Part shown: in pieces, positions 75 through 26,291 of the stretch | Layout: each line of letters begins with the position of its first letter | How positions within the stretch are numbered: position 1 is the first letter of the stretch | Origin: a virus | Virus record (IMG/VR): IMGVR_UViG_3300023196_003936 | Coordinates: 1-26,291 of that record | Direction: 5' to 3' (one strand) | DNA: 26,291 nucleotides | Position numbers and translations under genes: made by a program | Notes under the pieces: model-generated | Told to the model about the DNA's origin: nothing | Databases searched by the model: none | Seen by the model: only the letters and a program-made list of their open reading frames with translations

Positions 75-569
75 TTAGGTAGCGAGTTCCTCGTCGGTTG
101 AAGTGTCTGCTGTGACCCCTACAAGCTCAATCTCAAATTGAAGAGTTTCGCCAGCTAGGGGATGGTTTAAATCGATGGTCACCATGTCCTCGTGTTGCTC
201 TGTTAAACGTCCCACAACGGTTTGACCATTTGGGGTGCGTAGCGGGACTGGCATGCCGTCAACCAACTCTAAACCCTCTGGGAAGCCAGATTTCGGAAAC
301 GTGGTTTGTGCCTCTGGATTAATATTCCCATATGCCTGATCAGGAGAGAGGGTCACTGTTTTGGTTTCACCCACGTTCATCCCGGTAACAGCATCATTAA
401 ATCCGGGAATCATCTGCCCTGAGCCAATTGTGAAGGTAATTGGCTCTCCACGAGTGTTTGAATTATCGAATTCTGTTCCATCCTCCAAGGTTCCTCGATA
501 GTGGACGGTCGCATTGGCTCCATCGGCTGCGGTTGCTGTTGTTGCTGTATCTGCGTTGTTTGTTGTCAT
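75..569 (-). CDS. SlyD-like FKBP-type peptidyl-prolyl isomerase
   Basis: A 164-aa protein expected to speed cis-trans isomerisation of proline peptide bonds and to act as a folding chaperone in the cytoplasm. After a 20-residue Thr/Ala-rich N-terminus come the FKBP start (VHYRGTLEDGTEFDNS, about 22-37), the GQMIPGFNDAVTGMNVGE segment (51-68), an inserted insert-in-flap-like region (about 75-125) and the SlyD signature VTIDLNHPLAG near the C-terminus. The order FKBP half, flap insert, FKBP half is that of SlyD. The metal-binding His/Cys-rich tail of E. coli SlyD is missing; the C-terminus is short and acidic. The ATG has a GAGGAAA ribosome site. The gene sits 28 bases after the SSB terminator and has its own terminator, so it is probably expressed by read-through or from an unseen promoter. 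It could help fold virion proteins; that is inference. Confidence 0.9.
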   Translation of the reverse strand: MTTNNADTATTATAADGANATVHYRGTLEDGTEFDNSNTRGEPITFTIGSGQMIPGFNDAVTGMNVGETKTVTLSPDQAYGNINPEAQTTFPKSGFPEGLELVDGMPVPLRTPNGQTVVGRLTEQHEDMVTIDLNHPLAGETLQFEIELVGVTADTSTDEELAT

Positions 570-1501: not shown

Positions 1502-2329
1502 TTATTTTTGAATGTGTGGGGTTCTTGAAATAATATATCCAATGTCATATTCATATTCCGTTGGATAAATTGCGTATGTTATGTTTACATTTGGCTCCTT
1601 TTTTGAATCAATTTGGTTTTTTACTTTCTTCATAAAATCCTTGTCAGTTTTTAGTTTTTCCTCACTCACTCCATAAATATAACATTTATTTCGAGGGTTG
1701 TCAAGGGAAAAAAACATTTTTTCTTCATTTTTTTTAGTGTCGAAGAGACCGACAGTGAATATCCGATGTGTTTCTTTTGCTTTCGGGATTATTCCCGATA
1801 CTGCCTTGTTGTTTTGAAAGTAATTCAACATGTGGATGGTCGGAACTATTACTTCATTTAACTTATCGTGATATCCAATAACTGGTGCGCCGCCGATTAC
1901 CTTTTCTACTTCTGGATTGGAGATAATCGCCATATTGTTGAACACTCCAGACCTTGTATATTCTTGCATTACATTATAAACCAATTTATCAATCATTAAA
2001 GATTGTTCATCTAATATGGAAGTGTCCGGCTTTATATATAAAATTGAAATTTTCCTGTTCTTAATTGCTTCTAATATTTTTAATGAGCCGCAAGATGCTT
2101 TGCTTCCGCCGCCGATTATAAAGGTGGATTCCCCCTTCATACCTTTGAAAAAGGTTTTTATTTTAGGATATGTGTAAGACTCATACTCCTCTGCTGTCTC
2201 AAGTATAGGTATATTATAGCACCCTTTTCCCTCTATGTCAACATTTATTTTAAATATTTTATATTGCGGATATTGTGCAAACGAATCTGCAATATTACAA
2301 CCTGCTGTACCTAAACCTACGATGTTCAA
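1502..2329 (-). CDS. Divergent tubulin/FtsZ-like GTPase-fold protein
   Basis: A 275-aa protein with FtsZ/tubulin landmarks in the right order. It opens with the nucleotide-binding loop GLGTAGCNI (5-13), then a strand ending in FKINVD (26-31) where FtsZ has a VNTD-type segment. A glycine loop GGGSKASCGS (73-82) is followed by a helix, where FtsZ has GGGTGTG. Then come SILYIKPD (95-102), NNMAIISNPE (131-140) and a long helix around HDKLNEVIVPTIHMLNYF (154-171) that would be the central H7 helix. The FtsZ catalytic NxDxxD loop is not visible after that helix, so GTP hydrolysis may be lost or altered. The length is below that of FtsZ or the phage tubulin PhuZ (about 315). The start is TTG with an AGAGG site, 1 base after the polymerase stop. 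A Rossmann-type nucleotide-binding protein is the alternative. Confidence 0.68.
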   Translation of the reverse strand: MNIVGLGTAGCNIADSFAQYPQYKIFKINVDIEGKGCYNIPILETAEEYESYTYPKIKTFFKGMKGESTFIIGGGSKASCGSLKILEAIKNRKISILYIKPDTSILDEQSLMIDKLVYNVMQEYTRSGVFNNMAIISNPEVEKVIGGAPVIGYHDKLNEVIVPTIHMLNYFQNNKAVSGIIPKAKETHRIFTVGLFDTKKNEEKMFFSLDNPRNKCYIYGVSEEKLKTDKDFMKKVKNQIDSKKEPNVNITYAIYPTEYEYDIGYIISRTPHIQK

Positions 2330-2330
2330 T

Positions 2331-3515
2331 TTAAACCTCTAACTTCTTAAGATTTCCAAAATCTTTTCCAACACTAACATTGACTTTAAATTTCCCAAGC
2401 TCGGTGTCAGAGAATATTCTCAGCAATTCTGGGAGTTTTTCTTTATCTTCGACCGATAGGTCAATAATAATAGAATCATGGATCGGGAAAGCAACATATG
2501 ATTTCATTCCTTTTAAATAATTAGATACCTTAATCATTTGTCTCAAAACATTTTCAGCGCATGTTGATTGAATAATGTAGTTTAACGCTGTTCTTTCCTC
2601 GGACGGAATCACCTTGTTCCAAAAGGTTGTCACTCGGCCCTGTGTGAAGTATTTTTGTACCACCGATTCTCTGCCATAGGCATGCTCGCAAAGAGGATCA
2701 TAACTTTCTGGATTATATAACCAAGCAAAGATCTTCTTCTTGGCTTGATCTCTGGTTAGTTGTCCATTAAAGATATTTTCTATATTCCACTCGTGGATGT
2801 CTCCTTCCGGCTGCGTTCTTCCCTGTAAAGACAATAAGGTTCTTAATTCTGCTGCGTTAAAGTCAAGCTCGACGAAATAATCATTCTTTGGCTTTAGGAT
2901 TGATCTAAATTCCTTGTCTAGCGTCAGAATAGGAAAGCTATTTTTAATTGTTGTCAATCGACCGGTCTTTGTTCCCCACACGTTAAACTTGCAATATGGA
3001 TCAATCTTTTTTAAAGTTTGGGAAAATTTTCTGTGTTTTGTTCGATATAAAGATAATTCCCTCTTATCGATATTAAGTCTTGTGTGTTTGATTTCATCGA
3101 CAGCCTTTATTAAATCAAGGGTGTATCCATAGTTACTTGGCTTCTTATAATTTTCGAATACATGCTGGCAAATCATATCTTTCGTATAACACCACTCTAA
3201 AAGAAACGCTTTTGGAACTAAATCGTAAAAACAGTTCTCATTTAGCGATATTTGCGATGTAATAAAAGATTTGATGTAAGCCTTAAATCTTTTTTCTACG
3301 TCCTCTAAGCGCGGCTTTAGAGCCTCTGGGCACACTTCTTTGAGTGCCTTCCCTCCACAGTATATTTTAGCGTACTGAATATCTCTACTTTCTAAGAAAG
3401 ATGAGTAGGACCACGTTTCTGAAATGCCTACAGGGACCGGCTCATTAAAAAGAAGTGTGCCGTCTTGATATATGCCAACACATTCTTTTTTATCGTCTAG
3501 GGTCTGAAATAACAA
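2331..3515 (-). CDS. Compact family A DNA polymerase without a 3'-5' exonuclease domain
   Basis: A 394-aa protein with the complete set of family A polymerase motifs. TGRLTT (184-189) precedes motif A at 214-225 (FVELDFNAAELR, catalytic D218). Motif B follows the R-x3-K-x3-F-x3-Y spacing (R255, K259, F263, Y267). Motif C is IHDS at 345-348, with catalytic D347. The usual HDE is HDS here, so the conserved Glu is replaced by Ser. F263 corresponds to the Taq F667/T7 Y526 position. The first ~150 residues are too short for an exonuclease domain and show none of its acidic motifs. The start is TTG, 5 bases after a GAGG site that overlaps the previous stop. It lies directly after a baseplate-region gene and 1 base before the tubulin-like gene. 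It may be the replicative or an auxiliary polymerase; another polymerase outside the window cannot be excluded. Confidence 0.85.
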   Translation of the reverse strand: MLFQTLDDKKECVGIYQDGTLLFNEPVPVGISETWSYSSFLESRDIQYAKIYCGGKALKEVCPEALKPRLEDVEKRFKAYIKSFITSQISLNENCFYDLVPKAFLLEWCYTKDMICQHVFENYKKPSNYGYTLDLIKAVDEIKHTRLNIDKRELSLYRTKHRKFSQTLKKIDPYCKFNVWGTKTGRLTTIKNSFPILTLDKEFRSILKPKNDYFVELDFNAAELRTLLSLQGRTQPEGDIHEWNIENIFNGQLTRDQAKKKIFAWLYNPESYDPLCEHAYGRESVVQKYFTQGRVTTFWNKVIPSEERTALNYIIQSTCAENVLRQMIKVSNYLKGMKSYVAFPIHDSIIIDLSVEDKEKLPELLRIFSDTELGKFKVNVSVGKDFGNLKKLEV

Positions 3516-17137: not shown

Positions 17138-19597
17138 TTATGATTGAAGGGTAATCTTCTTCATTCCTGATACGGATACAGCATCGCCAACGTACATTGG
17201 TACGTGGAATACGATAGAATCCATTGCACCCTCCATTTCTGATACTGTGAACTCGTCGCTCATCAACTTGAAGCCGTTGACATGGACACTCATGATATCA
17301 GACATCGGAGCATTAAATGATGCAGCTGCCAGTGAGAATGCGCCTGCTTCGAAGTCGGAAACCATAATTTGCTCATATTCGTCGTGACGACCGTGAAGAG
17401 CCAGAACGTCAGCAGCTAATTTAGCTTCTTCCGCTCTTGCCAAAGATGCTTCAGCAACAAGATCTGCAGAAGCAGATGCTGCGTCAGCAATCATAAGATC
17501 TTCGATCTTCTTCATTGTGTCGTGAGACGCAGATGCGCCACCGAGTATACCAGACACTTCTTGAGCCAATTCGCCGCGTACTGCAGAGAATTCAGAAATC
17601 ATTGTTGTTTCGTTGTTATCAACGTCAGTTTGAACAACCAAACGAGCTGCAGCAGATTGAACTTCCTGTGCAGCGATTTGAGTATCAGCGTATGCCTTAG
17701 CATCGAATTCTGCCTTAGCAACAGAACCAGCTTGATTTACGCTACCTTCGACGATATCCAAACGACCGCCAAGACCACCTTCAGCCAATAGAGCACGAGA
17801 CTCTTCAGCAGCCAATGCAGCATCATTTGAGACTTCGTATGCAGCTTCTTTAGCTTCTTGCACATCTAATGCAGCTTGAATACCAGCTTCGATACCTCCG
17901 GCACGAGCGGTTTCACTTGCGAGATCTGCTGTGAGAACTGCTTCAGCAGCAACAGCACGAGCAGTCTCTGTAACAAGACTACCAGAGATTGCTGTTAATC
18001 CAGAATCAGAGTCTGATTTATTCTGATCAACATCAGCTTGAAGAGCAACGATACTTGCGATAACACTAACATCTGCTAATTGGTAAGCTGATGTAATTTC
18101 AAGCAAGGTATCAAAGTCAACTGATGAGCCAGAAAGAAGTGTGTCAATGCGACCTCTCTCGACACCAACAGCGGCATCGTTAGATGTTTCATATGCTGTA
18201 AGGTTATTTGCAACGACCGATTCTGCAGCCATAGCGCGAGCTTCTTCAGCTGCTAAAGCAGCATCATCAATGATCTTAGCGGCAGCGATTTCAGAACGAA
18301 TAGCAGCACGATCGTTGTCGCCATCTAACTCATTTCCGTCAACCTCAAGTTGAAGAGCGGCTAAAGCAGCATCATCAATGATCTTAGCGGCAGCGATTTC
18401 AGAGCGGATTAAAGCGCGATCGGTCGAAGTGGCTTGTTGTTCTGCCAAAAAGTTTGCAGCATTAAGCTGGTCTGCGGCGGCGCGAACGGTTTCTTCAGCA
18501 ATCATATCAGCATCGATGATATCGTGCAGGTCTTGAACAGCCTGAATTCTATCAGCAATCTCTGTATCTACCTTGCCGTCAAGTGTGGATTCAGCCAATA
18601 GAGCACGAGACTCTTCAGCAGCCAATGCAGCATCATTTGAGACTTCGTATGCAGCTTCTTTAGCTTCTTGCACATCTAATGCAGCTTGAATACCAGCTTC
18701 GATACCTCCGGCACGAGCGGTTTCACTTGCGAGATCTGCTGTGAGAACTGCTTCAGCAGCAACAGCACGAGCAGTCTCTGTAACAAGACTACCAGAGATT
18801 GCTGTTAATCCAGAATCAGAGTCTGATTTATTCTGATCAACATCAGCTTGAAGAGCAACGATACTTGCGATAACACTAACATCTGCTAATTGGTAAGCTG
18901 ATGTAATTTCAAGCAAGGTATCAAAGTCAACTGATGAGCCAGAAAGAAGTGTGTCAATGCGACCTCTCTCGACACCAACAGCGGCATCGTTAGATGTTTC
19001 ATATGCTGTAAGGTTATTTGCAACGACCGATTCTGCAGCCATAGCGCGAGCTTCTTCAGCTGAAATAGCAGTATCTGCATCTGATTTGTTCTGATCAACC
19101 TCAGTTTGAAGAGCAGCTAAAGCAGCATCATCAATGATTTTGGCAGCAGCGATTGCATCGTCACGATTAGACTCATTGAGAGTACGTGCAGCAAGAGCAA
19201 ATGCTCTTTCTTCAGCATCTTTAGCAATGCGGGCTGCTTCTTCGACACCCAACTCACCACGGATGGCAGCGCGGTCGTCAGAAGCAGCAAGCTCAACGGC
19301 ATCAAGATTAGCTTGAAGAGCTGCTTTATCAGCATTTAATTTTCTCATATTAACAAGAGCGTCATCACTAATTGTCAGATATTCTGACAATTCAGTTGAT
19401 AATTTCATGTATCTAAGATCGGCAAAGTTGCCCATGTCGATTGTACCGTACATGGACATCCCGAAATCGTCCGATTGAGCAAGTTCCGCCATGGAAGCGA
19501 ATTTTGTTCCATCAGCCTTCTTAAGCTCAATGTCAACATTGTCGAGTCTAGCGCGTGTACGTGCGACTCTTTGTAAGTTTTTGTTTTGTTCAGACAT
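17138..19597 (-). CDS. Coiled-coil tail fibre-like protein with internal repeats
   Basis: An 819-aa protein, probably a trimeric fibre or whisker on the virion. The N-terminal ~100 residues (ASMAELAQSDDFGMSMYG and onward) may be the attachment domain. Residues ~95-720 are Ala/Glu/Asp-rich repeats of the type AAIRSEIAAAKIIDDAALAA and EEARAMAAESVVANN that predict a long coiled coil. The C-terminal ~65 residues (FNAPMSDIMSVHVNGFKLMS, then DSIVFHVPMYVGDAVSVSG) match the small beta domain 'hVNGhxLxxxxFTVxxxxxxIxFxxPxxxGDxVxVxG' found at the tips of many phage fibres. Within the gene is a perfect 473-bp direct repeat with a spacing of 270 codons. The ATG has a GGAGAAA site. Host receptor binding is inferred, not shown. 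Confidence 0.75.
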   Translation of the reverse strand: MSEQNKNLQRVARTRARLDNVDIELKKADGTKFASMAELAQSDDFGMSMYGTIDMGNFADLRYMKLSTELSEYLTISDDALVNMRKLNADKAALQANLDAVELAASDDRAAIRGELGVEEAARIAKDAEERAFALAARTLNESNRDDAIAAAKIIDDAALAALQTEVDQNKSDADTAISAEEARAMAAESVVANNLTAYETSNDAAVGVERGRIDTLLSGSSVDFDTLLEITSAYQLADVSVIASIVALQADVDQNKSDSDSGLTAISGSLVTETARAVAAEAVLTADLASETARAGGIEAGIQAALDVQEAKEAAYEVSNDAALAAEESRALLAESTLDGKVDTEIADRIQAVQDLHDIIDADMIAEETVRAAADQLNAANFLAEQQATSTDRALIRSEIAAAKIIDDAALAALQLEVDGNELDGDNDRAAIRSEIAAAKIIDDAALAAEEARAMAAESVVANNLTAYETSNDAAVGVERGRIDTLLSGSSVDFDTLLEITSAYQLADVSVIASIVALQADVDQNKSDSDSGLTAISGSLVTETARAVAAEAVLTADLASETARAGGIEAGIQAALDVQEAKEAAYEVSNDAALAAEESRALLAEGGLGGRLDIVEGSVNQAGSVAKAEFDAKAYADTQIAAQEVQSAAARLVVQTDVDNNETTMISEFSAVRGELAQEVSGILGGASASHDTMKKIEDLMIADAASASADLVAEASLARAEEAKLAADVLALHGRHDEYEQIMVSDFEAGAFSLAAASFNAPMSDIMSVHVNGFKLMSDEFTVSEMEGAMDSIVFHVPMYVGDAVSVSGMKKITLQS
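17780..18252. repeat. 473-bp perfect direct repeat within the fibre gene, copy A
   Basis: Bases 17780-18252 are identical to 18590-19062 with an offset of 810 bp (270 codons), so the repeat is in frame. The flanking bases differ on both sides. At protein level it covers about 157 residues, from the EEARAMAAESVVANN part to AALAAEESRALLAE. Confidence 0.93.
18253..18295. repeat. Short in-frame repeat of the AAKIIDDAALAA unit
   Basis: A stretch of about 43 bp, nearly or fully identical to 18361-18403 (offset 108 bp, 36 codons). A more diverged third copy begins at 19117. It encodes the unit SEIAAAKIIDDAALAA of the coiled coil and shows that the gene has grown by several in-frame duplications of different size. 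Confidence 0.8.
18590..19062. repeat. 473-bp perfect direct repeat within the fibre gene, copy B
   Basis: Second copy of 17780-18252. The absence of any third-position change means the duplication is recent or is kept uniform by gene conversion. Confidence 0.93.
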
Positions 19598-19641
19598 ATT
19601 ATTTTTTCTCCTTGGGGGCTTCCCATTTAATAATATATGTT

Positions 19642-19660
19642 GGCGACTTTAGGTGTCGCC
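19642..19660 (-). other. Hairpin between the two fibre genes
   Basis: GGCGAC and GTCGCC form a 6-bp GC-rich stem with a 7-base loop just after the stop of the 810-aa gene. On the minus strand no T run follows, so it probably does not terminate and may protect or process the message. On the plus strand a T run does follow, but no plus-strand gene uses it. Confidence 0.5.
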
Positions 19661-19669
19661 GGACCTTTT

Positions 19670-22102
19670 TTATAGCAACCAGTTTGAAATGTCATCTGTT
19701 GTTATAACAGTTCCATCTGGTGAGGCTGCGCACCATTTATCAATATTATAAGCATAGTTAAAATCAGCTATGCCAAGCGAAGTCAAGACTGTACTCATTT
19801 GAGATTCGTCATAAACCGCTGACCAATTGGTCAATGCAATATAAGATGCAAAGGTGAAGTCAGACTTTCTAACAACGATACAAATTGCATCAGCTGCTTC
19901 TGAAATGTCAACGACGACGGCTCCAGTGGGAATGGTCATTCTTTCAGTAAGAGCACCACCCTCTGCAGGCATTGTATAGACTTTTTCACTGTATTCTATG
20001 ATCCAAGTATTTGAAGTTGCACCGAAATGCACTTGATTAATTTTACCCGTATTTCCATTATCATGTACTTTGGTAAATGATAGTGGGGCGGATGATGCAT
20101 CTAAATCTATGAGGTAAGCACAGCCGGCTTCGGTTCCGACAAAAACCTTACCAGCAGGTCCATATGCAGCACACGCAGGTGCATCATATATACCGTGAGC
20201 ATCGGGGCCGTATGAAGTAAAGGCACTCCACGTCTGAAGATCTTGAGTGAAATACAAAACTGTATTTCCGTCGTCGTTCTTCACATGCATGTGAGATCGG
20301 TAAGCCCCACCATCGGTTCCGTGAACATATTTAATAATATTGGAAAGATTTCCTCCATGGAAGGGATCATAAGATGATCCTGCTTGTGCCGGAGCTGTTT
20401 CGCCCGGTGCAATGATGCCCACAAATGAACTTCCGTCAGGACCGGCTGTCCAGCCTTCTCCCGGAAGAGCCTCGCTTATTTGATTACCATAAAATACAGC
20501 ATCATATTCAGCATAGTGACCGCCGCCTGAAGGAAGCATGATTGTACTTGTACCTTCGGCTTCCCATGAGAGAAGGGCAGATGCACTGAAACCTGCTGTG
20601 CCGTCTATAACAGATTGAAAGAATGTTCCGTCATCAGATTGAACACCTGATAGCAAGTTTAGGTTATATTTCTTGATAAGCTCTTTTACAAGTGCATCAA
20701 GATCTAGATCACCTCCGCTGCCATCGTCAAAAGTTACATCAGTAAGTATTTCATTGCTACCCTGACTAGATATAGACAGGGATTTTATGGTCAAATCGCC
20801 AATATAGAATGGACCCCAAAAGGAATTTCCTTCATCATCACTGGTCAGCTGATCGTGTGTACCAGCGTGTGAGAGATTAGGGTGATCTAAGTAGGACATG
20901 ACGATAATGCCATCACCAACATTTAGTTGTGAGATAAAAATGTTAACTGTGGTATCAGCTTTTGCAAGGATAACCCCTGCTGCATCAACTACTGCTACAT
21001 ATACTGAATGAGAACCACCCGATGGGGCAGTAAGAGCCGCATCTGCACCAATAGCTGTCAATGCTTTCGCACCGTCAATTGTTGCGCCAACTTCTCCAAA
21101 TCCAGTCAGAGATGCTGACCAGTTTGCTGCGCCTTCTGCCGTGGCTGCTGCATTTGGAGTTCCCGTAACAGCTATATTTGTTCCCGTTGCAGCAACATCG
21201 ACTGAAATAGCAGCAGAAGGTGGTCCGACTGTGAATGACCCACTTGAAGGTACAGACGCTGCACTATTTGCTAGCACTATTCCGTCAGCGGTCTGAGTGA
21301 TTATTACCGAATGTTCTTCGAGATAGTTGCCGCCAACAAGAGCCCAAGTATAATCACCATATAATAAATTCATTGGGATAGTCTCTGGAGACACGCCAAC
21401 AGCAAGTGTCGCATTGTGTACAACATCACCTGTGCTGACATGAGTGATCACCAAAGAGGTGCCATCCCAACCGTCGTTATAAGAGTCAGTTTTCACAATG
21501 GTTACAGATACGGATGGTGAATTATTGATGGTATCCGAATTACCCACGATCACGTTTCCTGCTGAGTCAACAGCTGCGACATAAACAGTATGTTCTCCAA
21601 CGTATGCAGGAGTCACTGTTACGGATGCGCCTAGAGCGGTTAGGGTTCCGCCATGTGGCTCCCCTTCTGCTCCCAGAGCAGAGAAGGAGTAAGCCCAGTG
21701 GGTCGCTCCCGCTGTGATCGCATCAGCGTTGAGAGTAGCAGACACTGTGACATCTCCATCACTAACAGACAATACCGGAGTAATGACTGTGTTCGAGCCC
21801 ACTACAAATGTTCCTGTGCCTGATCCTCCAACAAGGCTGGCTAGCAAGGTGCCACTCTCATCCGTGATGGTAGCCACAATCTCACTCGGATATTCGCCCG
21901 GAACCATAGTATAGGTGTACGTTCCCGTTTCAACAGAAATTGTCTGTGTTAATCCAGCTGGATATGCGACAGCGGTTGCTGGACCCGAGGTCGCTAGAAC
22001 TGTGACACCGTTGGAATCAGAGATTGTAAGACTACCTCCGTTCCAAGTATCACCATAAGAATCGGCTTGGAAGATATCTAAATCAATAGTATTTACAGGC
22101 AT
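19670..22102 (-). CDS. Large fibre/virion surface protein with a duplicated N-terminal module
   Basis: An 810-aa protein, mostly beta-strand, acidic and Gly/Ser/Thr-rich, without a signal peptide. A module of about 190 residues occurs twice (about 5-193 and 198-388). Each copy starts with DSYGDTWNGGSL or DSYNDGWDGTSL and later carries a W-x-x-S segment, an ALTAIGA-like segment and HTVYVAAVDSAG or HSVYVAVVDAAG, which looks like an Ig/fibronectin-type strand pair. The 'DxYxDxWxG' motif may bind calcium. The C-terminal half (about 430-810) has beta-propeller-like strands (KVFVGTEAGCAYLIDL; TWIIEYSEKVYTMPAEG) ending in WCAASPDGTVITTDDISNW. The start ATG overlaps the leader peptide stop (TAATG) and has an AAGGAGG site. 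The neighbouring gene is another fibre-like gene. Receptor or surface binding is inferred. Confidence 0.7.
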   Translation of the reverse strand: MPVNTIDLDIFQADSYGDTWNGGSLTISDSNGVTVLATSGPATAVAYPAGLTQTISVETGTYTYTMVPGEYPSEIVATITDESGTLLASLVGGSGTGTFVVGSNTVITPVLSVSDGDVTVSATLNADAITAGATHWAYSFSALGAEGEPHGGTLTALGASVTVTPAYVGEHTVYVAAVDSAGNVIVGNSDTINNSPSVSVTIVKTDSYNDGWDGTSLVITHVSTGDVVHNATLAVGVSPETIPMNLLYGDYTWALVGGNYLEEHSVIITQTADGIVLANSAASVPSSGSFTVGPPSAAISVDVAATGTNIAVTGTPNAAATAEGAANWSASLTGFGEVGATIDGAKALTAIGADAALTAPSGGSHSVYVAVVDAAGVILAKADTTVNIFISQLNVGDGIIVMSYLDHPNLSHAGTHDQLTSDDEGNSFWGPFYIGDLTIKSLSISSQGSNEILTDVTFDDGSGGDLDLDALVKELIKKYNLNLLSGVQSDDGTFFQSVIDGTAGFSASALLSWEAEGTSTIMLPSGGGHYAEYDAVFYGNQISEALPGEGWTAGPDGSSFVGIIAPGETAPAQAGSSYDPFHGGNLSNIIKYVHGTDGGAYRSHMHVKNDDGNTVLYFTQDLQTWSAFTSYGPDAHGIYDAPACAAYGPAGKVFVGTEAGCAYLIDLDASSAPLSFTKVHDNGNTGKINQVHFGATSNTWIIEYSEKVYTMPAEGGALTERMTIPTGAVVVDISEAADAICIVVRKSDFTFASYIALTNWSAVYDESQMSTVLTSLGIADFNYAYNIDKWCAASPDGTVITTDDISNWLL

Positions 22103-22146
22103 TAGATCCCCCTCCTTATTATTTTATTTATTTTATTTATTTTCAT
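22102..22146 (-). CDS. Leader peptide MKINKINKIIRRGI, coupled to the fibre gene
   Basis: A 14-codon open frame with its own strong ribosome site (AGGAGG, 6 bases before the ATG). Its TAA shares a base with the ATG of the 810-aa gene (TAATG). The Shine-Dalgarno sequence of the fibre gene lies inside its last codons, which encode Arg-Arg-Gly. It is built from a repeated Lys-Ile-Asn codon set in an AT-rich tract. Translation of the leader would open or couple the fibre start. The peptide itself may have no function. Confidence 0.5.
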   Translation of the reverse strand: MKINKINKIIRRGI

Positions 22147-22290
22147 ATTTTTTCCTCCTAGAAAAAAGAAAATTTGCCCTTTAAAAAAACAGATGTTTTT
22201 CAAAAAAACAAGATGCTAGTCTGCGGACAGACTTAATCGGCTTAGTTAGATACAAATTATCTCAAAAGCAAAAAAAATGTGAAAATATAT
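22147..22290 (-). promoter_or_regulatory. Untranslated leader of the fibre unit
   Basis: About 144 bases between the PrkA terminator and the leader peptide. On the minus strand it holds an AGATAATTTGTATCT inverted repeat, a GC-rich hairpin at 22218-22233 (AGTCTG-TCCG-CAGACT) and two T7 tracts preceded by CATCTTG and CATCTG. A transcription start for the fibre genes must lie here or upstream, but I cannot point to a convincing promoter. The hairpin and T tracts are separated by about 9 bases, so they do not make a standard terminator. Confidence 0.4.
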
Positions 22291-22328
22291 AATAAAAAAG
22301 AAACCCTGTAAGGAATCTTACAGGGTTT
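22291..22328 (-). terminator. Strong rho-independent terminator after prkA
   Basis: AAACCCTGTAAG and CTTACAGGGTTT form a 12-bp stem over a 4-base loop, followed on the minus strand by CTTTTTTATT. It lies 46 bases after the PrkA stop. It isolates the PrkA/SpoVR/DUF444 unit from the fibre genes. Confidence 0.93.
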
Positions 22329-22373
22329 TTGTGTTTTTTATTTTAAAACGTTTATTTTTGAAAAATATTTGAG

Positions 22374-24317
22374 CTAGCTGTCTCTCCACAGATTGTTTGA
22401 AGCGTATTTAATAACTTCGTTTGCTGACCTCTCGCTATATCCATATTCATCCATCAAGGTTTTAATCATCTCGTTGTATTTACTTTGTTGTTTCTTGTCT
22501 CTCGATTTAGATTTTGTAACAATTCTGGAAATGTCACGAACTGAAGCAAGGAGTTTGTTTTCGATTGCCTCCTTGAGTGGTCCATAAGAGGTCCAGTCAA
22601 TTATCTCGCCCTTTCTCAATTTCGCAAACATGTAAGCTGTGATGTCGGCTCTGAAATTTTCTCTTGCAGAACCGATGATACCAATTTGCTCTTCGATTGA
22701 TTGTAAGAATTCCTCATCGGCATGCATATCTTCATTCGTTACTTTATCTTTCACTTTAGAGCCGTTTACATAGGCTTCTGCGTGATCTAGATAATTGTTA
22801 AACAAGGACTCTGCCTGTTCCTGATATGCTGAAACGAAAGCCTTTGTAATTTCCGTCTCTAACATTTTCAGATATTCATCATGTAGCTCTTTTTGAAGGA
22901 ATGAAAGATATTTCTCTCTTAAGTCTTCGACAACGACCTGTTCCTTGACTTGTTTGATTAGGGCATCCCTAATTGAAATGGGGGTAACCATATTGTTTTC
23001 AGAGTCAGCGACGGCCGCGTCGATGGACTTCATAATAAATCTTGTTGAAATTCCCGTCATGCCCTCATCGCGAACTTCGTCCCTAAGATCATTAATATCA
23101 ATTTTCTTGATATAACCCTTTTCAACAACTTCTTGACCGTTATAAATCTTCATTTTTGTTACCGGGTCAACCTTGTTGGATGGCTTAAGTCTCGTAAGAA
23201 CAGAAAACATTGCTGCCAACTCTAAGGTGTGTGGCGCGATGTGTGCATCAAAGTCCGACTCATCTAATAATTTTTTATAAATCTTCTTCTCTTCATCAAC
23301 CTCCAAACAGTAAGGTATATTAACTCTTACGATTCTGTCAAGAATCGCTTCATTGGTGTTCTCTGATTTAAATTTAATCCATTCGGCTTCGTTGCAGTGT
23401 GCGAGAATAACACCGTCAAAGTAAATCATGGCACCTTTGCCGGGGGATGGGACTACTTTTTCCTGCGTTGCAGTAATCATTGTGTGCAAGAATTCAATTT
23501 CGTTCTTGAAAACCTCAACAAACTCAACAATTCCACGATTTCCTACGTTGAAGGCTCCGTTTAGGCTTAGAGCGCGAGGGTCGTCTTCCGGATAGAGGTC
23601 TAATTTTGATATGTCTTCTGACCCTATCAGGATGCTTGTGTCTTGAGTATTTGCATCCATAGGTGGAACAACACCTACCCCACGTCTTCCACGAATTGAA
23701 AAGCTGGTTTCCTTTACGGGAAATTTCATATAATCTCCATCGTATTCTTCCAATAGCCTGTGGCGACAAACTGGGCACAGATCTCCCTCTATTTTAACAC
23801 CATATAAATCTTGGAATTGATCTCTTAAGCTTCTGGGAATAAGATGTATAGGTTCTTCGTTGATTGGACAACCGTCAAGAGAGTATAATATACCGCTCTG
23901 CTCAAGGGCTCTTTTAATATGCTCAACGAGAGCTGATTTGCCCGCGCCGACGGGTCCGAGCAATAGGAGCACTTGGCGACTCTCTTCTCCTTTCATGGCG
24001 GCTGAGTGGAGATACCTCATGACTTTCGCTAGGGGTCTTTCCATTCCGAAAAACCTTGTTTGAAAATAATCATAAGTTTTTAAGGATTCACCGTCAAAAA
24101 GAGTATTACATCGAGAATCGTCTTCTGTCATCCTAGTGATGCCCTTGTCCACAATTGTTTTATAAAGTCTCTTGTGGGCAAGTTGAGAAATAGTCTTGTC
24201 TTCCTCTAGAAGCTCAAGGTAATCAGAAAACGTACCCTTAAACTTCTCTCTTTTACTGTCGTTCTTATGCTTTTCAGCCAGTTCTAAAAATTTATTAGTT
24301 TTTGATTTGTTTGTCAT
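22374..24317 (-). CDS. prkA: PrkA/YeaG-like AAA+ serine protein kinase
   Basis: A 647-aa protein, almost exactly the length of E. coli YeaG. Landmarks: an N-terminal FSDYLELLEED segment like that of PrkA, FFGMERPLAKVMRYLHSAA (89-107), the Walker A motif GPVGAGKSAL (121-130), a CPVC pair (171-174), LNGAFNVGNRGIVEFVEVFK (252-271) with ITATQEK after it, and FDGVILAHCNEAEW (300-313). These are the signature blocks of the PrkA family. In E. coli the yeaGH operon responds to stress and nitrogen starvation; PrkA has been reported as a kinase and, in Bacillus, as an ATP-dependent protease. I chose the ATG at 24317, 1 base after the SpoVR stop, because it fits the family N-terminus and coupling; an in-frame ATG at 24338 would add 7 residues. 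A full and apparently intact protein inside a phage genome is unusual. Confidence 0.92.
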   Translation of the reverse strand: MTNKSKTNKFLELAEKHKNDSKREKFKGTFSDYLELLEEDKTISQLAHKRLYKTIVDKGITRMTEDDSRCNTLFDGESLKTYDYFQTRFFGMERPLAKVMRYLHSAAMKGEESRQVLLLLGPVGAGKSALVEHIKRALEQSGILYSLDGCPINEEPIHLIPRSLRDQFQDLYGVKIEGDLCPVCRHRLLEEYDGDYMKFPVKETSFSIRGRRGVGVVPPMDANTQDTSILIGSEDISKLDLYPEDDPRALSLNGAFNVGNRGIVEFVEVFKNEIEFLHTMITATQEKVVPSPGKGAMIYFDGVILAHCNEAEWIKFKSENTNEAILDRIVRVNIPYCLEVDEEKKIYKKLLDESDFDAHIAPHTLELAAMFSVLTRLKPSNKVDPVTKMKIYNGQEVVEKGYIKKIDINDLRDEVRDEGMTGISTRFIMKSIDAAVADSENNMVTPISIRDALIKQVKEQVVVEDLREKYLSFLQKELHDEYLKMLETEITKAFVSAYQEQAESLFNNYLDHAEAYVNGSKVKDKVTNEDMHADEEFLQSIEEQIGIIGSARENFRADITAYMFAKLRKGEIIDWTSYGPLKEAIENKLLASVRDISRIVTKSKSRDKKQQSKYNEMIKTLMDEYGYSERSANEVIKYASNNLWRDS

Positions 24318-24318
24318 T

Positions 24319-25620
24319 TTAAAATTCCCATATTTCATTTTCGATGATCGTTATAAATTCTACATTGTCATTCCACAAGTAACATATATTGTCATATACC
24401 TTATTTGCGTATGATAAATCTAAATCTCGTCCGTCGTGCTCATGCTTTATGAAAAGAGTGTTTGTTTTCTTTTCAAAATTTTCGACATAAACAATCGGAA
24501 CTCCATTAAGACCCACACTACTAATTAGAGCGTTCCTAACGCTTTTCCAACCTTCTTCGTCAGAAATTTCATTTATTGCATAATTTCCTGTGTTTTTCTG
24601 ATAAGAGTATGAAAATAAGTTTAGCTCGTTACACATTTCTTCGTCTAAATATTTACGAATAAAGGATTCATCATCGTGGGTTTGTCTAACCAGTAGACAC
24701 TCCTCGAAGCCGTGCTCTCTTTCTATTTTTTTGAATAAAGAGTAGCCCAAATGGTAAGGATTAACCTTTCCCACGATCGGACGAACAACCTGATTGTGTG
24801 TTTTTAAAAATGCAAGATGATATTTGTCTGGCAATTCAAGATCATACATAATTTTTTCATGAATTAAAACTGCCCAGCCCTCGTTCATAATCTTGGTCTG
24901 ACCTTGCGGGACAAAATATTTAGATCTTCTCTCTACCATTTCCATCAAATCCTGTTGCCAGTCTTCGAGGTCTCTTGCATTTTTTCTAATAAATTCTAAT
25001 AAGTTATATTCTTGCCTAACAAGACCAACGTCCAAATTGATTTTGCCCTTTGTTTTTTTAAACAAATCTATCTTCGCTTCATCTTGGCTTATTCTGTTAA
25101 TACCCGGAGTTCTAGGTATCTGGTATTGAATAGAGTGACAAGCATCCAAAACTCTTTCGACTTTTTCAATTCCAATGTCCGGATCTTCTATATATTGCTG
25201 CACCCTTTTAGCTGCTGATTTGAATCTGGATATTATATTATTTGGATCCGTGTGTGTAAACATTCTATTGTTTTTGAAAAAATCAGAGTGTCCAACACAA
25301 TGAGACATCGTTAGAAGATGCGTGCTCATCGGGTTTTCAAGCATCAAGTACGCAATAGAAGGGTTTGAATTAATAATCATTTCATATGGCAACCCCTCCA
25401 TACCCAAATTGTATCTGGTAATAGTTCTTTCAAAAGATTTCCCGAATGACCAATGACGGTAATGAGTAGGGAGACCTGAATATGCCATTGCTCCGATCAT
25501 CTCATGATAATTTAAAATTTCATATTCTATCGGAAACCAATCTAAGTTGTATTTTTCTTTGGCTATTTCACGAATTTTCTCGTCCCAACTTTGCAATTCT
25601 TTCACTGTCCAATCTTTCAT
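24319..25620 (-). CDS. spoVR: SpoVR/YcgB family protein
   Basis: A 433-aa protein with the SpoVR family blocks. They are SGLPTHYRHWSFGKSFERT (about 55-73), YEMIINSNPSIAYLMLENP (about 86-104), MSHCVGHSDFFKNNRMF (about 111-127), FVPQGQTKIMNEGWAVLIHE (about 256-275) and NPYHLGYSLFKKIEREHGFE (about 305-324). The His and Glu residues in these blocks (HxxGHxxFF, NEGW) suggest a metal site, although the biochemical activity of the family is not established. E. coli YcgB has about 510 residues; the missing part is mainly C-terminal. The start at 25620 overlaps the DUF444 stop as TAATG and follows a GGAGGAAAAA site, so I prefer it to an ATG 13 codons upstream. In Bacillus SpoVR is needed for spore cortex; in Proteobacteria it is stress-related and accompanies PrkA and YeaH. 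Confidence 0.92.
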   Translation of the reverse strand: MKDWTVKELQSWDEKIREIAKEKYNLDWFPIEYEILNYHEMIGAMAYSGLPTHYRHWSFGKSFERTITRYNLGMEGLPYEMIINSNPSIAYLMLENPMSTHLLTMSHCVGHSDFFKNNRMFTHTDPNNIISRFKSAAKRVQQYIEDPDIGIEKVERVLDACHSIQYQIPRTPGINRISQDEAKIDLFKKTKGKINLDVGLVRQEYNLLEFIRKNARDLEDWQQDLMEMVERRSKYFVPQGQTKIMNEGWAVLIHEKIMYDLELPDKYHLAFLKTHNQVVRPIVGKVNPYHLGYSLFKKIEREHGFEECLLVRQTHDDESFIRKYLDEEMCNELNLFSYSYQKNTGNYAINEISDEEGWKSVRNALISSVGLNGVPIVYVENFEKKTNTLFIKHEHDGRDLDLSYANKVYDNICYLWNDNVEFITIIENEIWEF

Positions 25621-26291
25621 TAACTTTTTCCTCCAAATATATGTTGAAATGATGGCCAAATGTGTGTTGGCTTTGATAACTTAACTTTCTTAAATGAATC
25701 ATCTGTTATAGGGGCTAACTTTTTCCATAAATTTGTTGCCTCGCTCTGATTATATCTAAAGCTTTTTGTCAATATTGATAATTCCGATTCTGGATGTGCC
25801 ATTGGGTCGATTTCCGCATAACAGATCATTTGATTGAGTTGTTTTAATTCAGTAAAAAGCGCGACTGTTTTGGGATCGTCGAAAGACCAGTTTTCTCCAT
25901 CGCCGGAATAAAAAGTATAGATATTCCAGCTAGAAGGGTGATATCTCTTGTTTATTATATCTTTTGTCATTTCCAGAGCAGAAGACATGACAGTACCACC
26001 TGTTGTCCCTCTCTTGAAAAAATCGTCCTCGTTAACTTCGCGGGCTTCGGTGCAATGAGATATAAAAACAACTTCAATATTGTTATATTTATATCTTAAA
26101 AATTGATATAATAGAAAGTAAAAGCTTCTAGCAATATATTTTTTATTTTTAGTCATAGATCCGGAGACATCCATCAGAAAAAAGACCACGGCGGAGTTGT
26201 TTTCCTGTGGCTTGGGCTTCATATGTTTGTATTTTAGGTCGTCTTCGTGAAAAGGGAATCTTTCTCCAGATTCTGGGTCATAAGCTCCAGA
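25620..26291 (-). CDS. YeaH/YhbH-like DUF444 protein with VWA-type domain (5' end outside window)
   Basis: An open frame of 223 codons that runs out of the window at 26291 without a start, so it is partial; the ATG at 26222 is internal. The MIDAS-type sequence VFFLMDVSGSMTKNKK (DxSxS) lies shortly after the visible start. It is followed by IEVVFISHCTEAREVNEDDF, FKRGTTGGTVMSSALEM (with the MIDAS Thr) and TFYSGDGENWSFDDP. This matches the C-terminal part of YeaH (427 aa in E. coli). In bacteria this protein is encoded with PrkA/YeaG and is probably its partner. Here it is the upstream gene of the coupled series DUF444-SpoVR-PrkA. Confidence 0.9.
   Translation of the reverse strand, partial: SGAYDPESGERFPFHEDDLKYKHMKPKPQENNSAVVFFLMDVSGSMTKNKKYIARSFYFLLYQFLRYKYNNIEVVFISHCTEAREVNEDDFFKRGTTGGTVMSSALEMTKDIINKRYHPSSWNIYTFYSGDGENWSFDDPKTVALFTELKQLNQMICYAEIDPMAHPESELSILTKSFRYNQSEATNLWKKLAPITDDSFKKVKLSKPTHIWPSFQHIFGGKS

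Follow-up and report, generated by a model that had tools for sequence, protein, structure and literature searches.

A conserved DUF444-SpoVR-PrkA gene trio of viruses as a possible AAA+/vWA protein-remodelling machine

The stretch of DNA analysed here, hereafter the window, is an entire IMG/VR virus record (IMGVR_UViG_3300023196_003936), a 26,291-base fragment from a marine bacterial virus; it ends in three adjacent genes encoding proteins of the DUF444, SpoVR and PrkA families. The cellular job of these three families is poorly defined, and their co-conservation in viruses, described below, argues for one acting unit. Here, we describe the operon and its predicted products, the spread and ancestry of the trio among viruses, and the readings of its function that its genomic setting allows.

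The operon and its predicted products

DUF444, SpoVR and PrkA form a tight operon, and all three score far above the curated Pfam cut-offs (Table 1). The letters at the DUF444/SpoVR junction, GTTAATGAAAG, show the stop and start codons overlapping, and a single base separates SpoVR from PrkA if the latter starts at its second Met, the start used by most homologues; the longer PrkA open reading frame overlaps SpoVR by 20 bases. The hairpin beyond PrkA is a credible operon terminator: hairpins of differing stem sequence lie at the same place in most of the close relatives folded, and the number of terminator-like sites taken alone shows no excess over chance. The two genes next downstream encode long proteins that have no Pfam match and are fibre-like by their repetitive sequence, and a tail sheath gene lies about 6 kb from the trio. 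An earlier first-pass annotation, made from the letters of the window, had noted both gene junctions, a strong closing terminator and intact Walker A, MIDAS and SpoVR His/Glu motifs, and each of these descriptions agrees with ours, the 1-base gap being true for the preferred PrkA start. Its account of near-complete family signatures stands for SpoVR, which spans its full profile, and for PrkA, which has both domains, but not for DUF444, which is cut short; likewise, fibre-like genes do follow directly, but the sheath gene stands farther off.

Table 1. Features of the trio operon in the window
Feature	Position	Strand	Basis
DUF444 (YhbH/YeaH) vWA protein gene, 5' part missing at contig end	25620..26291	-	PF04285, 240 bits
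MIDAS motif DVSGS of DUF444	26157..26171	-	invariant residues in viral alignment
TAATG stop-start overlap, DUF444/SpoVR	25618..25622	-	direct sequence reading
SpoVR gene, 433 amino acids from conserved ATG	24319..25620	-	PF04293, 388 bits; start matches relatives
SpoVR HCVGH motif (H107, H111), candidate metal ligands	25288..25302	-	both His in 187/187 sequences
SpoVR NEGWA motif (E247), candidate third metal ligand	24871..24885	-	E247 in 187/187 sequences
PrkA AAA+ protein gene, preferred ATG 24317 (longer open reading frame from 24338)	22374..24317	-	PF08298 and PF06798
Walker A motif GPVGAGKSAL of PrkA	23928..23957	-	invariant across viral and cellular PrkA
Operon-closing terminator hairpin	22301..22328	-	12-pair stem, then T-rich tail

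PrkA matches both of its Pfam families strongly (489 bits to PF08298 and 267 bits to PF06798, with cut-offs of 25), and its relatives have a median length of 647 amino acids. Eight residues, G128, P129, K134, S135, E272, E275, N316 and R335, are invariant in 27 viral and cellular sequences; they comprise the Walker A, acidic and sensor-like Asn and Arg positions of an AAA+ protein. The score against the NCBIfam equivalog PRK15455 is 412.6 bits, below the cut-off of 576, and the profile scores thus place PrkA in the YeaG family but not in the named equivalog. Solved structures of the PrkA family (9xip, 9xiq and 9xir) were identified by sequence match. The Bacillus anthracis protein forms ATP-dependent oligomers, and kinase or protease activity was undetectable in vitro (PMC13001217).

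The window's DUF444 is incomplete because the contig stops at 26291. Its 223 residues cover profile positions 220-415 of 418 in PF04285, far above the cut-off of 27 bits; complete relatives have about 400 residues, and the full-length protein of locus L002 has 402. The metal-ion-dependent adhesion site (MIDAS) residues D220, S222, S224, T279 and D310 (L002 numbering) are invariant in 40 viral sequences, and the L002 model aligns with vWA domains over 160 residues (Z 15.6, root-mean-square deviation 2.6). By alignment and predicted structure, therefore, DUF444 is a vWA protein with a complete MIDAS. The L002 protein scores 375.9 bits against the sporulation YhbH equivalog TIGR02877, below the cut-off of 467.95. 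In loci L022 and L033, DUF444 is present as two adjacent frames upstream of SpoVR, the result of a frameshift or an assembly error.

SpoVR covers profile positions 1-405 of 407 in PF04293 (cut-off 27 bits) and scores 265.7 bits against the NCBIfam equivalog PRK11767, below its cut-off of 679. A search by sequence found no solved relative. On structural re-alignment, the predicted model (predicted local distance difference test score 84.9) finds its best fits among zinc metallopeptidase folds belonging to several families (best Z 10.2, 176 residues, root-mean-square deviation 4.0), and all 50 matches listed are zinc metallopeptidases or their relatives, with ACE2 recurring. Helical models often give middling Z scores, and Foldseek alone returned no significant match for SpoVR (best E 0.05); for these two reasons we grade the likeness of the model to a zincin, specifically a gluzincin, as suggestive. 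The three candidate metal ligands, H107, H111 and E247, are invariant, and residue 108 is Glu in none of the 187 sequences, so that HxxGH stands in place of HExxH and the catalytic Glu is never present. The NEGWA motif aligns weakly, by profile, with NEGF of an M1 aminopeptidase (E 0.59). The simplest reading of motifs and model is a predicted metal-binding fold whose peptidase chemistry has been changed or lost.

Spread, gene order and ancestry of the trio

Searching with SpoVR turned up 121 related viral contigs, and 80 of these were fetched: 77 carry DUF444-SpoVR-PrkA in the same order and on the same strand, and in the remaining three a contig end interrupts the trio. Broader searches returned 389 PrkA and 392 SpoVR stretches, and 111 stretches with a proteobacterial-type SpoVR query, the sets overlapping. 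Among the 318 viral loci fetched, some contigs being counted more than once, all three genes occur together in 306. Most of the remaining 12 are cut by contig ends; in L332 SpoVR stands alone with 5 kb on either side, and L160 has no SpoVR. The view of the first-pass annotation that the phage carries a whole, intact set is upheld, and in relatives DUF444 is complete. Where it could be computed, for diverged pairs, the ratio of nonsynonymous to synonymous substitution rates (dN/dS) was 0.008-0.050 for the trio genes. Synonymous change far exceeds amino-acid change, and all three genes are therefore maintained; the trio is under strong purifying selection.

Two gene orders share these loci almost evenly: 150 have DUF444-SpoVR-PrkA and 156 have PrkA-DUF444-SpoVR, or 92 and 89, respectively, when counted by distinct SpoVR sequence (n=186). 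The former, permuted order is found in the window and in isolated Thermus phages. The latter is the order of all the cellular records examined that hold the three genes (Thermomicrobium, Sinorhizobium meliloti, Cupriavidus, Sphingobium and Pontibacillus) and of other large viruses, including two huge uncultured phages. Many of these cell-order virus records gave no match to a TerL profile, and we call them viral on the strength of their IMG/VR classification and neighbouring genes. An HNH-type endonuclease-like gene (L113:1796-2656) separates PrkA from DUF444 in one cell-order virus, which the PrkA tree places as sister to the marine clade.

The marine sequences with the permuted order form one group in each of the PrkA, SpoVR and DUF444 trees, which were drawn with midpoint roots, and the Thermus phage sequences form another. 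A distinct viral group with one gene order for all three proteins is what the first-pass annotation had proposed to look for as the sign of an established phage module. A single origin of the permuted order was rejected when permuted-order PrkA sequences were constrained to one clade (approximately unbiased test, p-AU 7e-13); the trees indicate that this order probably arose at least twice, with long branches as a caveat. Cellular sampling comprised ten plasmid or chromosome-like records.

Genomic setting and proposed function

The trio stands at the end of a head-neck gene string in the close clade of the window. A prohead protease gene, a small gene, a scaffold-like gene, the major head protein gene and a head-tail adaptor gene are followed by two unknown genes, DUF444, SpoVR, PrkA and the terminator, and then by fibre-like and sheath genes. 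Phage head-neck genes lie directly upstream of the trio in 29 related loci, many of which have fibre or sheath genes downstream, and in 27 of the 29 the spacing between the preceding gene and the DUF444 start is -44 to +9 bases, most often -4. This coupling to a head-neck string closed by a terminator favours late co-expression of the trio with the head-neck genes, and the trio is probably used late in this clade. In the Thermus phage Lalka8 the trio is flanked by the genes for portal/minor head protein and for TerL. Elsewhere the surroundings differ: sister clades have the trio near PhoH, GroEL-like or DUF2201 genes, and reductase genes lie downstream of it in cell-order viruses (L098 and L101). 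The trio is stable while its neighbours change.

Two kinds of gene recur near the trio. In 26 sister-clade loci PrkA is followed downstream by a divergent GroEL-like gene of phage type (L067:13525-14928 and 25 others), and a DUF2201 metallopeptidase-vWA gene lies within 10 kb of the trio at L041:2300-3526 and in ten other loci. Genes of the DUF2201 type are paired with MoxR in jumbo phages (PMC7824862).

Hundreds of viral contigs keep the three genes together, and one order is fixed across the marine clade; both facts speak for a trio that acts as one unit. The reading that we tentatively favour is that this unit is a viral AAA+/vWA protein-remodelling machine whose target, in the clade of the window, is a late protein, most likely one concerned with building or finishing the virion. 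The three products would form a complex in which PrkA serves as the ATP-driven AAA+ motor, DUF444 is expected to hold a substrate peptide as a vWA/MIDAS adaptor, and SpoVR, whose predicted zincin-like fold has a changed active site, may serve as either a platform or a modified hydrolase. Its chaperone activity would follow the manner of the MoxR-vWA or RavA-ViaA chaperone pairs, with the adaptor capturing a target that the motor then pulls or reshapes. Among the possible uses of such a machine in this clade, remodelling of a late protein or of the virion is our leading guess.

Several alternatives were weighed against this proposal. The window ends inside DUF444, and another phage record ends in what appears to be a host yeaG-yeaH flank; both facts could point to bacterial genes joined to phage DNA during assembly. 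That second record, Enterobacter phage LAU1 (L089, MN688132.1, 1-3308), was rejected as a trio carrier, because its YeaG-YeaH genes keep the bacterial order, sit at the extreme tip of the record and group tightly with Escherichia coli; they are most likely a host flank inside a phage record. In the clade of the window, the same joins recur in many independent contigs, where head genes precede the trio and fibre or sheath genes follow it, and these contigs rule out chimerism or contamination. No close bacterial source was found in the plasmid collection, whose best homologues are about 40% identical, or in a scan of GTDB contigs, which finds close relatives only and gave one weak match. Neither of the outcomes that the first-pass annotation had named as fatal to its view, a chimeric join or near-identity to a single bacterial genus, was encountered: the joins are shared by independent contigs, and the best bacterial relatives are about 40% identical. 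An assembly artefact is thus refuted for this clade and, for the window itself, is vanishingly improbable. A host-physiology role is, by comparison, a real if somewhat doubtful possibility. The phage copies would then take over or strengthen the YeaG-YeaH-YcgB response of the host, and the resulting shift in RpoS or toxin-antitoxin control would keep cells productive under starvation or stress. In cells, YeaG and YeaH function during nitrogen starvation (PMC4664914), B. anthracis requires PrkA to sporulate and to survive osmotic stress (PMC13001217), and spoVR outnumbered all other viral genes of the sporulation class in an oxygen minimum zone (PMC8940887); the nucleotide-metabolism genes beside the trio in cell-order viruses, and PhoH near it in sister clades, also accord with such a role. 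The stress link comes only from cellular homologues, however, and viral location does not support the proposal of the first-pass annotation that the trio steers starvation or dormancy: in the clade of the window the trio ends a head-neck string to which it is coupled, its neighbours differ in other viruses, and no host stress-response regulatory gene was seen with it.

A role in counter-defence, in which the machine would disassemble a host anti-phage complex or protect the infected cell from other phages, draws on the use of MoxR-vWA ATPases by conflict systems (PMC7159879), but it is highly improbable. PADLOC models gave no match to PrkA or SpoVR and a marginal one to DUF444 (E 0.006), so that a known defence system finds no support there, and none of the genes identified next to the trio is a defence or anti-defence gene. 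The remodelling machine that we favour has evidence against it as well. The T4-type late promoter TATAAATA is absent within 400 bases upstream of DUF444 in the close relatives examined. Eight large sister-clade contigs have the trio 73-112 kb from the capsid gene, and a cell-order virus (L100) has it between DnaB/helicase-loader genes and ribonucleotide reductase; because of such locations a virion-only role is not general, and we reject the idea that position points to virion assembly in all carriers. At E 0.001, Pfam gave no MoxR family match for PrkA, which belongs instead to the PrkA AAA family, and the MoxR-vWA comparison is for that reason one of working mode only. The Foldseek result for SpoVR likewise counts against the proposed machine. 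A broader version, a general remodelling machine for large-phage protein assembly that acts on head-tail proteins in this clade and that would reveal the biochemistry of the cellular trio, we consider unlikely.

All identified genes of the window lie on the minus strand, and they include those for a tail sheath protein (PHROG, E 2e-63), a baseplate hub, a gp32-like single-stranded DNA-binding protein and a PolA-like fragment. The region 18000-26291 has no near DNA match in the phage collection. The PolA-like open reading frame is short (2331-3515, minus strand, 394 amino acids), lies beside the gp32-like gene and adjoins tail genes. The product of 1502-2329 (minus strand) has tubulin/FtsZ-like glycine-rich motifs (GLGTAGCN and GGGSKASCGSLKI), has no Pfam or NCBIfam match, and is possibly a phage tubulin; in sister-clade loci, one of the genes close to the trio (L061:9600-10781) gives a weak match to PF00091 Tubulin. 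An FKBP-type peptidyl-prolyl isomerase-like gene (75-569, minus strand) may encode a second folding factor of the phage. The fibre-like protein encoded at 17138-19597 (minus strand; 819 amino acids, no Pfam match) contains a long internal duplication, in which the sequence from NLTAYETSNDAAVGVERGRIDTLLSGSSVDFDTLLEITSAYQ onward occurs twice.

Comparison with known systems

The closest cellular counterparts, YeaG-YeaH-YcgB of E. coli and PrkA-YhbH-SpoVR of B. subtilis, comprise the same three families with the same domain content in genes that are usually adjacent. PrkA comes first in the cells examined, whereas it comes last in the window, whose proteins are about 40% (PrkA) or less identical to the cellular ones and score under the NCBIfam equivalog cut-offs. 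In haloarchaea, DUF444 and SpoVR have two neighbouring PrkA genes (PMC3102087). Among phages, the Thermus phages phiYS40, Lalka8 and MN1 share the permuted order with the window, and Lalka8 has the trio among head and packaging genes; their PrkA proteins, however, are about 32-34% identical to that of the window, the PrkA tree gives their gene order an origin of its own, and in phiYS40 one further gene separates SpoVR from PrkA. Thermus phages that carry the trio can be grown on laboratory strains. The Ralstonia jumbo phage RsoM2USA carries SpoVR and PrkA genes within 5 kb, in what the published strands and coordinates suggest is the cellular order, unlike the window; its authors name the two genes separately and describe no set (PMC8504454).

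AAA+ motors with vWA partners, the MoxR-vWA systems, remodel complexes in several settings (PMC7159879), and in jumbo phages MoxR and its metallopeptidase-vWA partner have been proposed to be virion-assembly chaperones (PMC7824862). These pairs resemble the trio in joining an AAA+ motor, a vWA partner and a metallopeptidase-type domain, and in having the vWA co-chaperone beside the ATPase, as DUF444 shares the operon in nearly all loci. They differ in that PrkA is of another AAA+ family and SpoVR is a separate protein without the Glu of HExxH. Finally, viruses of the Eastern Tropical North Pacific oxygen minimum zone carry marine viral SpoVR, as the window does; that study placed spoVR among sporulation genes, and PrkA is not mentioned in the text (PMC8940887). 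In the viral contigs analysed here, by contrast, SpoVR almost never stands alone. The co-conservation of the trio disfavours the reading of viral spoVR as a lone sporulation gene and suggests that its listing as such in viromes is often a misreading; the trio is an established viral device and not a stray 'sporulation' gene.

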